IMG/VR virus record: IMGVR_UViG_3300043436_000620
Coordinates: 1-29,804 of that record
DNA length: 29,804 nucleotides
Direction: 5' to 3' (one strand)
Source of the DNA: a virus
The position numbers and the translations under genes are program-made. This document shows positions 1,544 through 24,425 of this stretch, in pieces (the stretch's first letter is position 1; each line of letters starts with the position of its first letter). The notes beneath the pieces were generated by a model. That model worked only from the letters and a program-made list of their open reading frames with translations. It was not told where the DNA came from and ran no database searches.

Positions 1544-1702
1544 ATGAGAGAAGATTTAGAAGAATTAATTAAGAAGTTTGAAACGAGAGTTAAGGTTGCA
1601 AACGATATGGAACAATCAGCATTTTTTGATGGCGTTAAATCCATGAGTGAATTTGCAATTATAGAATTAAAATTAATATTAGCTAACAATACAGAATTAT
1701 GA
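1544..1702 (+). CDS. Small acidic helical protein (52 aa)
   Basis: ATG 1544 to TGA 1700-1702 encodes 52 residues, first gene after the promoter at 1489-1518. It is predicted to be almost entirely helical with alternating charges (REDLEELIKKFETR). Its stop overlaps the ERF start as ATGA, so translation is likely coupled. Function is unknown; being first in the operon before a recombinase suggests a regulatory or accessory role, but nothing in the sequence shows it. Confidence 0.65.
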   Translation: MREDLEELIKKFETRVKVANDMEQSAFFDGVKSMSEFAIIELKLILANNTEL

Positions 1703-2202
1703 AAAACTACACGAAATTATTAGAGGCAAAAAGAGAGATTGGCAAAGCTACTAAAAACGCTACAAATCCACATTTCAAAAACAAGTATGTAGACATTAAC
1801 GCTTTAATCGAAACAGTTGAACCAGTACTATTAAATCACGGTTTAATCTTATTACAACCAATAGAAGACGGCAAACAGTACACTAGGATTATAGATGCAG
1901 AAGATGGAAGTTTTATAGAATCATTTATCACACTACCAATAGGATTGACACCACAAGCACTCGGGTCGTCTGTGACGTACTTTCGTCGTTATACTTTGGC
2001 CAGCCTTTTATGTATGCAATCACAAGATGATGATGCAAATTTAGCAAGCGCAACACCTGTTAAAAATCAAATGAGTGAGAAACAATTTAACCAAGCGTGC
2101 GAGCGAATGAGTAATGGTGAAGTTGAGTTAATCACAAAATTACGTGAATCATTTGTATTCACGGCACAACAAGAATTAGAAATTAAAGAAATACTAGGGT
2201 AA
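1699..2202 (+). CDS. erf: ERF-family single-strand annealing protein
   Basis: 167 residues. ERF proteins bind single-stranded DNA and anneal complementary strands; the best-known member, from phage P22, circularises the genome by recombination. The signature is clear: an N-terminal LLEAKREIGKATKNATN with NPHFKNKYVDI (residues about 8-34), LLNHGLILLQP (about 45-55), and the core GSSVTYFRRYTLASLL at about 93-108 followed by the acidic QDDDANLA. The C-terminal 50 residues after the core look like a small helical tail. It fits with the RusA-like enzyme upstream: annealing followed by resolution, which would also help turn replication products into concatemers for packaging. Confidence 0.88.
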   Translation: MKNYTKLLEAKREIGKATKNATNPHFKNKYVDINALIETVEPVLLNHGLILLQPIEDGKQYTRIIDAEDGSFIESFITLPIGLTPQALGSSVTYFRRYTLASLLCMQSQDDDANLASATPVKNQMSEKQFNQACERMSNGEVELITKLRESFVFTAQQELEIKEILG

Positions 2203-23243: not shown

Positions 23244-23271
23244 AAAACCCGTTGCGCCCGTAACGGGTTTT
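23244..23271 (+). terminator. Rho-independent terminator at the end of the late genes
   Basis: AAAACCCGTT at 23244-23253 pairs with AACGGGTTTT at 23262-23271, loop of eight bases, followed by CTTATTT. The ten-pair stem, four of them G-C in a row, is very clear in this AT-rich DNA. It separates lysis from the accessory region. Confidence 0.88.
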
Positions 23272-23316: not shown

Positions 23317-23346
23317 TTGTTTATTAATAAAAGTTACTTATATTTG
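23317..23346 (+). promoter_or_regulatory. Bacteroidetes-type promoter for the accessory operon
   Basis: TTG at 23317-23319, 19-base spacer, TATATTTG at 23339-23346. Fits the host -33/-7 pattern exactly. The ATG at 23386 is about 33 bases after the expected start of transcription. Confidence 0.78.
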
Positions 23347-23385: not shown

Positions 23386-23682
23386 ATGAAAAATTTAATT
23401 GGTAAAAAAGTAATTGTTAGAGCTGATAGAGCTGGGGTTTTTTACGGTACATTAACATCTAAAGAAGGTAGTGAAGTTACATTAGAAAATGCTAGAAAGT
23501 TATATTATTGGACAGGGGCAAATGCAATAGAAGAAATTGCATTAAGTGGCGTTAAAAAAGCTAGTAATTGTAAATTCACAGTTGTTAATAAAGAAATTAC
23601 AATCAACAACTGGATTCAAATAAATCCATGCACAGAGGAAGCTATTAATAACATTGAAAGCGTAGTAGAATGGAAGAATTAA
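23386..23682 (+). CDS. DUF6948-like protein
   Basis: 98 residues. The ATG at 23386 is chosen because it starts the family pattern LIGKKVIVRADRAGVFYGTL, and a GTG start further up (23314) would lie inside the promoter. The remaining pattern ARKLYYWTGANAIEEIALSGVK, NCKFTVVNKEITI, QINPCTEEAINNIESVVEWK is one I recall as DUF6948, widespread in phages with no known function. The sequence suggests a small beta-barrel, so nucleic-acid or ligand binding is possible. It overlaps the repeat protein gene by 13 bases. I recall the two gene types occurring side by side in other genomes. Confidence 0.75.
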   Translation: MKNLIGKKVIVRADRAGVFYGTLTSKEGSEVTLENARKLYYWTGANAIEEIALSGVKKASNCKFTVVNKEITINNWIQINPCTEEAINNIESVVEWKN

Positions 23683-24425
23683 TAAAAAACTTTTTAACCG
23701 TAACAAGTAATTCTGGTTCTGGTGATGGTTATGGTGATGGTTCTGGTTATGGTTATGGTTCTGGTTATGGTTATGGTGATGGTTATGGTTCTGGTTCTGG
23801 TGATGGTGATGGTGATGGTTATGGTTCTGGTTCTGGTTCTGGTGATGGTTCTGGTTCTGGTTCTGGTTATGGTGATGGTTCTGGTTCTGGTTATGGTTAT
23901 GGTTATGGTGATGGTGATGGTTCTGGTTCTGGTTATGGTTATGGTTCTGGTTTAAAATCATTAAACAACCAAAAAGTAAATTCAATTGACGAAGTACCTA
24001 CAATAATCAAATCAGTTAAAAACAACATTGCAAAAGGATTTATAGTACATAATGATTTGACATTAACAAAGTGTTTTATTGCTAAAGGAGAAAATCAATT
24101 TTCACACGGAGAAACATTGGAAGATGCGTTAAATTCATTACAAGAAAAGTTACTGCTAAATAAACCAATCGAAGAACGAATAGAAGATTTTAAAACAAAC
24201 TTTAATAATTTAACAGATGAATACCAAGCTAAAGAATTTTATAAATGGCACTTTCTTTTAACTGGTAGTTGTGATTTAGGTCGTAAATCATTTGTAAACG
24301 ATAAAAAAATAGACTTAGAAAATGACAAGTTTAGTGTTTTAAAGTTTATTGATTTAGTTCAAAACTCATACGGTAGTGATATTATTAGACAATTAAAAGA
24401 ATCCTATGAAGTTAAACGAGCGTAA
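23670..24425 (+). CDS. X-Gly repeat protein with a conserved C-terminal domain
   Basis: 251 residues in three parts: a short N-terminus (1-14), a perfect X-Gly dipeptide tract at 15-94, and a folded domain at about 95-251. In the tract X is only Ser (17), Tyr (13) or Asp (10), 40 units with no interruption. The C-terminal domain (VNSIDEVPTIIKSVKNNIAKGFIVHNDLTLTKCFIAKGENQF, then EFYKWHFLLTGSCDLGRKSFV) is a pattern I recall from a phage family of unknown function, which I remember as DUF7666. The tract is low-complexity and probably disordered; Asp and Tyr could serve in calcium binding or weak multivalent contacts. Function unknown. Confidence 0.75.
   Translation: MEELIKNFLTVTSNSGSGDGYGDGSGYGYGSGYGYGDGYGSGSGDGDGDGYGSGSGSGDGSGSGSGYGDGSGSGYGYGYGDGDGSGSGYGYGSGLKSLNNQKVNSIDEVPTIIKSVKNNIAKGFIVHNDLTLTKCFIAKGENQFSHGETLEDALNSLQEKLLLNKPIEERIEDFKTNFNNLTDEYQAKEFYKWHFLLTGSCDLGRKSFVNDKKIDLENDKFSVLKFIDLVQNSYGSDIIRQLKESYEVKRA
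23712..23951 (+). repeat. 240-bp GGTNNT low-complexity tract
   Basis: Forty in-frame six-base units, each TCT, GAT or TAT followed by GGT. All 80 codons end in T. The strand is made almost only of G and T and carries a GG every six bases. The three X codons differ from each other by one or two changes. Such a tract can gain or lose units by slippage or unequal crossing over without shifting frame. Confidence 0.95.

Follow-up and report, generated by a model that had tools for sequence, protein, structure and literature searches.

A hypervariable (Ser/Tyr/Asp)-Gly repeat gene paired with DUF6948, a predicted Sm-like protein, in bacterial viruses

The repeat tract and its gene

What does a virus do with a protein containing forty consecutive dipeptides drawn from three units, and what keeps such a repeat in place? 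The question is raised by a 29,804-base virus record, the whole of which was analysed here and is referred to as the window. On its plus strand, positions 23712-23951 encode 40 uninterrupted X-Gly (XG) units made of GGT-TCT/TAT/GAT hexamers, in which X is Ser 17 times (TCT), Tyr 13 times (TAT) and Asp 10 times (GAT). On re-reading, the tract was found to be exactly as the original prediction had described it, perfect over 40 units, with GGT at 40 of 40 Gly positions and T at the end of 80 of 80 codons. This purity does not reflect codon usage, because the other genes of the window, 12 of which were counted, mix their Gly and Ser codons (GGT 128, GGA 103, GGC 21 and GGG 19 for Gly; TCT in 59 of 306 Ser codons); given the codon usage of the window, the chance of 40 GGT in 40 is about 1e-13 and that of 17 TCT in 17 about 1e-12. 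The order of the units shows no visible periodicity, and the longest internal repeat, of five units, is typical of shuffled tracts.

The tract lies in a gene of 251 codons (23670-24425, plus strand; delimited by the open reading frame and by comparison with relatives) formed by a leader, the 80-residue XG tract and a C-terminal domain, an architecture also found in relatives L002-L027. The leader has 14 residues (MEELIKNFLTVTSN; 23670-23711, plus strand); the relatives have short leaders of a similar kind, often with a helix-like xIxxFLxV pattern. The C-terminal domain (HGETL...LTGSC, 157 residues; 23952-24422, plus strand) gave a confident AF2 model (pLDDT 91.8), and a search of the PDB with this domain returned no convincing match. 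A Pfam TrAA12 match to the tract was under the cut-off and was set aside as a low-complexity artefact. The profiles of PHROG 18306 and 11232, two unnamed families of unknown function, also match the tract, matches to low-complexity sequence being weak evidence; that of PHROG 18306 matches DUF6948 as well (see below), a hint that fused forms may exist. An antisense NH/NQ open reading frame across the tract is not a gene, as relatives with another codon set encode an entirely different peptide there.

Directly upstream, and on the same strand, lies a DUF6948 gene (PF22253; 23386-23682; E 4.5e-22, 78.4 bits against a curated cut-off of 27), the stop of which overlaps the start of the tract gene by 13 nt (23670-23682). 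The host-type promoter of the original prediction stands as far as one box is concerned: TATATTTG, at 23339-23346 (plus strand) and upstream of the DUF6948 gene, resembles the Bacteroidota -7 box, but a full two-box match is lacking at this site. A hairpin resembling a rho-independent terminator (23244-23271, plus strand) sets the two genes apart from the endolysin gene upstream. Elsewhere, the phage encodes terminase, portal and tape-measure proteins, an Erf-like ssDNA-annealing protein (1699-2202, plus strand), a RusA-like protein and a replication-initiation protein. PADLOC, whose models represent anti-phage defence proteins and do not cover anti-defence, found no match; an early action against the host, as had been suggested, found no support, and neither did calcium binding by the tract protein.

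A two-gene module with DUF6948

Tract genes were gathered either with a DNA pattern or by way of the C-terminal domain of the window gene. By a DUF6948 profile built on the domain alone, tracts excluded, DUF6948 was directly upstream of 83 of the 127 tracts with enough upstream sequence, i.e. of all 23 with the C-terminal domain of the window and of 60 of the 104 other tract genes. In many of the remaining cases the upstream gene is a divergent relative of DUF6948: a profile of such genes, A8, matches DUF6948 (90.8%, E 1e-6) and a second, A7, matches A8 (98.3%, E 2e-14), the direct match of A7 to DUF6948 being weak. All 77 aligned partner genes match PF22253 at E <= 0.01. The pairing was also followed from the other side. 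Among 121 loci with a DUF6948 motif derived from the closer subset of the alignment (41 in bacterial or archaeal assemblies, 80 viral), an XG tract was found downstream in 112, with at least six units in 106 and three to five in six, and in two the contig ended before any tract. The overlap between the two genes is likewise conserved, at 13 nt in 75 and 16 nt in 13 of 103 relatives, and DUF6948 and the tract gene are apparently translationally coupled. The two genes make up a widespread module, shared by bacterial viruses of very different kinds, in which the tract gene comes second. The proposed joint expression with DUF6948 is supported by pairing and overlap, and DUF6948 proved to be the key partner of the tract gene. 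Hosts named in the record titles belong to the Bacteroidota, Clostridia, Verrucomicrobia, Betaproteobacteria, Acidobacteria and Cyanobacteria, an assignment that is tentative because most records are metagenome bins. The neighbours in relatives include genes for SSB, RecT, a DnaC loader, an exonuclease, a helicase and a methyltransferase, which places the module in a replication/recombination region.

The tract gene itself occurs as a stand-alone form (53-89 residues in Pectobacterium phages), from which the C-terminal domain of the window is missing, with that C-terminal domain, or with other domains. Further C-terminal domains after XG tracts are of a WKxxWxxIA type and an SNGG type (L038, L109; L063, L144, L168). 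Tandem paralogous XG genes with similar ends and different tracts are also found (five in L058:1660-2968; L151:1479-2593, L150 and L111), and in Manatee Spring podovirus ctRVW222 (L221:1504-2077) the order is apparently swapped, the XG gene preceding the DUF6948 match. In Tetrasphaera phage TJE1 (L005:1572-2306) the C-terminal domain of the window follows leucine-rich-type repeats (SVTSLPEGFNPTVGGWLDLR) and not XG units, as it also does in Riemerella phage CRP5 (H10), the record of which names a ribonuclease inhibitor; the C-terminal domain is a small one that stands behind differing repetitive modules.

Fixed composition and rapid turnover of the tract

To avoid selection bias, composition was assessed at loci picked through DUF6948 and not through the tract, with no composition filter, which gave 105 distinct tracts with 2,566 units. 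Ser (39.5%), Tyr (28.3%) and Asp (25.2%) account for 93% of the X residues; Asn follows at 1.3%, and every other residue is at or below 1.3%, including Ala (0.8%), despite its one-base distance to both Ser and Asp codons. The composition of the tracts is therefore fixed, half of it being Gly and the X residue Ser, Tyr, Asp and sometimes Asn, mostly over about 15-60 units. Codons are nearly homogeneous within each tract (third-base means of 0.97 in a wider tract set) and differ between genomes, the sets being GGC/NNT in 48 tracts, GGC/NNC in 40, GGT/NNC in 10 and GGT/NNT in three. Differing codon sets together with homogeneity within each tract fit a history in which tracts repeatedly grew again from short seeds while selection acted on the protein. 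A constant tract with ordinary codons in distant relatives, which would have spoken against the original prediction, was sought, and the opposite was found; the proposed selection for composition, as distinct from order, is supported, since Ser, Tyr and Asp are kept across the 105 loci while their order varies.

Length and order of the tract change far faster than the surrounding DNA. The one other IMG/VR contig with the tract gene of the window, L002, differs from it by two mismatches in 4802 nt on the left and two within about 900 nt on the right, and has a tract of 31 units, against 40, in a different order; turning one string of units into the other takes 21 edits, compared with 19.1 +- 1.7 for shuffled strings, so that no similarity of order is left. 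The tracts analysed come from short-read assemblies, and cultured isolates show the same pattern. The Pectobacterium phages of the Ymer genus were sequenced with Illumina reads and assembled with metaSPAdes (PMC11445585). Of these, Ymer and Amona have no mismatch in 2790 nt to the left and 600 nt to the right, and their tracts differ; as expected with few events, some order is retained (12 edits versus 16.9 for shuffles, P 0.005). The tracts of Koroua, Pappous, Taid and Sabo are different again. The tract proteins have 73 residues in Ymer, 67 in Amona, 89 in Koroua, 53 in Pappous, 85 in Taid and 73 in Sabo, and all length differences between the tract genes of the genus are multiples of 6 nt. 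L267 matches L269 perfectly for 1 kb to either side of the tract, and the two differ by a single exact tandem duplication spanning nine units, which makes the elementary event visible: tracts change by in-frame duplication or deletion of blocks of hexamer units. The continuous expansion foreseen in the original prediction is supported, the tract being scrambled between near-identical phages.

The Rheinheimera Barba phages (L343-L349:1189-1746), with N, Y and D as X residues, offer a similar picture, as 115 records from one host strain comprise several tract alleles. Their tract regions fall into length classes of +6, +30 and +42 nt over a base class, and the +30 allele has three mismatches in 1506 nt of one flank and five in 884 nt of the other. 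These records are a ready data set for the mutation rate of the tract, and published RNA-seq of phage Barba18A (PMC9305737) could be used for expression timing; neither repeats nor glycine are mentioned in the paper on the Barba phage genome. Close pairs with the same tract also exist (L264/L265, Ymer/Abuela), pairs that were one contig fetched twice not being counted. The pair L270/L271 was dropped as a case of variability, its indels looking like homopolymer sequencing errors. Contig ends within 300 nt of DUF6948 are more frequent downstream (27) than upstream (five), an asymmetry that would follow from assemblies breaking at the tract, for which its repetitiveness alone could suffice. The Erf-like protein of the window phage is a possible driver of repeat mispairing. 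Diversity-generating retroelements differ in that the resolved change here is a block duplication and not a substitution; moreover, no reverse transcriptase (RVT_1) was found in the 29.8-kb record, which may be a fragment.

A predicted Sm-like partner and the possible role of the module

The AF2 model of DUF6948, from an alignment of 77 sequences from which rows of the phage collection were left out, has a pLDDT of 97.6 and a pTM of 0.89, and its five strands of 6-12 residues form an Sm-type barrel. In a Foldseek search of the PDB, 50 of the 50 matches listed were Sm, LSm, SmAP or Sm-like proteins, including snRNP and spliceosome chains, with 1i8f, 1lnx, 1i5l, LSm and spliceosomal Sm proteins at the top; among the matches listed, E was 0.002 or weaker, the probability 1.00 and the TM-score by target mostly 0.6-0.74. 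Sm/LSm proteins and archaeal SmAPs thus head the structural matches listed for the model, which differs from them by two helices, one that lies between strands three and four and one at the C terminus, as well as in sequence: the Sm profile PF01423 matched nothing in the window and none of the 77 DUF6948 members, and a DUF6948 profile run against PDB sequences gave chance hits only, with no Sm chain. As the structures match and the sequences do not, we refer to a predicted Sm/LSm-like fold and do not file DUF6948 as a member of the Sm family. Highly conserved positions include G16, G20, R36, W41, A51, G54 and A85; residues at positions 11, 36, 37 and 62 are basic in over 80% of members, but the protein as a whole is only mildly basic, its net charge averaging +1.8 and running from -4 to +11.

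A predicted Sm-like protein nearly always paired with an acidic, Gly-rich polymer of free order recalls Hfq. In Hfq, the disordered acidic tail, whose length and composition vary, attaches to the basic Sm core, displacing RNA (PMC5606850), and the tail of the A. baumannii protein has Gly-rich repeats whose number matters (PMC11617691). Common to Hfq and the module are the Sm-type fold, predicted in the latter, and a flexible, Gly-rich, acidic low-complexity part of varying length and sequence. In Hfq, however, core and tail are in one polypeptide, whereas the module consists of two overlapping genes, is encoded by phages, has a DUF6948 with no detectable Sm sequence motif, and has a partner with a strict XG alphabet of Ser, Tyr and Asp that varies between near-identical phage isolates. 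The reading we favour, with a probability of about 0.4, is that DUF6948 acts as an Sm-like protein with the (S/Y/D)-Gly protein as its partner in trans, in a manner resembling the Hfq tail, the two genes being coupled and the tract turning over under selection for its composition. The hexamer repeat would gain and lose units in frame, by slippage or single-strand-annealing recombination; length and order would turn over very fast, with selection preserving composition. DUF6948 would hold nucleic acid, which is probably RNA or ssDNA of the phage, as its gene lies among those for replication and recombination; its partner, flexible, acidic and carrying Tyr, may bind or surround the Sm-like core, may compete with the nucleic acid and might cluster it, a job for which composition and length would matter and order would not. 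Neither the added C-terminal domains nor the share of Tyr, about a third of X, is accounted for by a tail-like role; the low average charge of DUF6948 and a match to Sm proteins in structure but not in sequence also count against this reading. Only tentatively do we go further and picture, in many phages, a split Sm chaperone of their own, in which an Sm-like ring and a hypervariable polymer in trans would organise or release phage nucleic acid, probably in the manner of a condensate-like brush.

That the XG protein is in the first place a condensate scaffold, self-associating through Tyr stickers with Gly and Ser as spacers and Asp for solubility, while the Sm-like protein recruits nucleic acid, seems to us rather unlikely. 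The fixed mixture of Tyr, Gly, Ser and Asp in free order would suit such a role, as would the stand-alone genes, which hold little besides the tract, but tracts of 6-12 units (L003, L004) seem short if they are to phase-separate alone and Arg, the usual partner of Tyr, is nearly missing. This explanation would overlap with the Hfq-like one, which may also allow condensation, and differs in putting phase separation first. Tract change between phages with no flank mismatch could alternatively mean that diversity itself is selected, the tract being a moving target or decoy for a host sensor, with its order driven to change. We regard this as improbable: the alphabet stays narrow, with three residues making up 93% of X, a 6-bp tandem repeat that turns over neutrally should change in the same way, and the near-identical pairs named above have kept the same tract.

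Gly is encoded by GGC or GGT in 2503 of the 2,566 units (97.5%) and hardly ever by GGA, which is almost absent from tracts, including that of the window, yet common in the other genes of the window. This bias, together with the nearly constant position of the tract after DUF6948, could indicate that the repeated mRNA or DNA is itself the functional element, e.g. as an RNA that offers the Sm-like protein multivalent binding, with the peptide incidental. Such a nucleic-acid-level role is a possible reason for the scarcity of GGA, as is avoidance of the Shine-Dalgarno-like GGAG, of which the tract of the window would contain 10 if it used GGA. Since, in addition, the wobble base switches between genomes and the tract keeps to one protein frame, we hold this explanation to be quite improbable. 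Least of all do we expect a functionless microsatellite, a harmless product of replication slippage: block duplications are observed and 31% of the tracts have excess internal repeats, but the DUF6948 pairing, the overlap and the Ser/Tyr/Asp alphabet recur across many phyla (by contig assignment) with different codon sets, and residues a single step away, such as Ala, stay below 1%.

In the open-access literature searched, we found no description of DUF6948, of such phage tracts or of such a module. Although Sm folds and the Gly-rich tails of Hfq have been described before, a phage module that joins a protein of predicted Sm-like fold to a separately encoded, hypervariable dipeptide-repeat protein does not appear in those papers; if an Hfq-like mechanism were proved, the module could be argued down to a variant of the Sm system. 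DUF6948, for which Pfam has an entry with no function, is here given a fold, by prediction, and a partner that is almost always present in phages of many bacterial phyla, as far as contig assignments go. Near-identical phages with different tracts in the same gene also offer, as an experiment of nature, a way to weigh composition against order in disordered proteins. If DUF6948 binds RNA or ssDNA, phages would own a widespread, dedicated Sm system; and if the split-chaperone reading is true, a part of a protein free in order and selected for composition would be seen evolving between single isolates.
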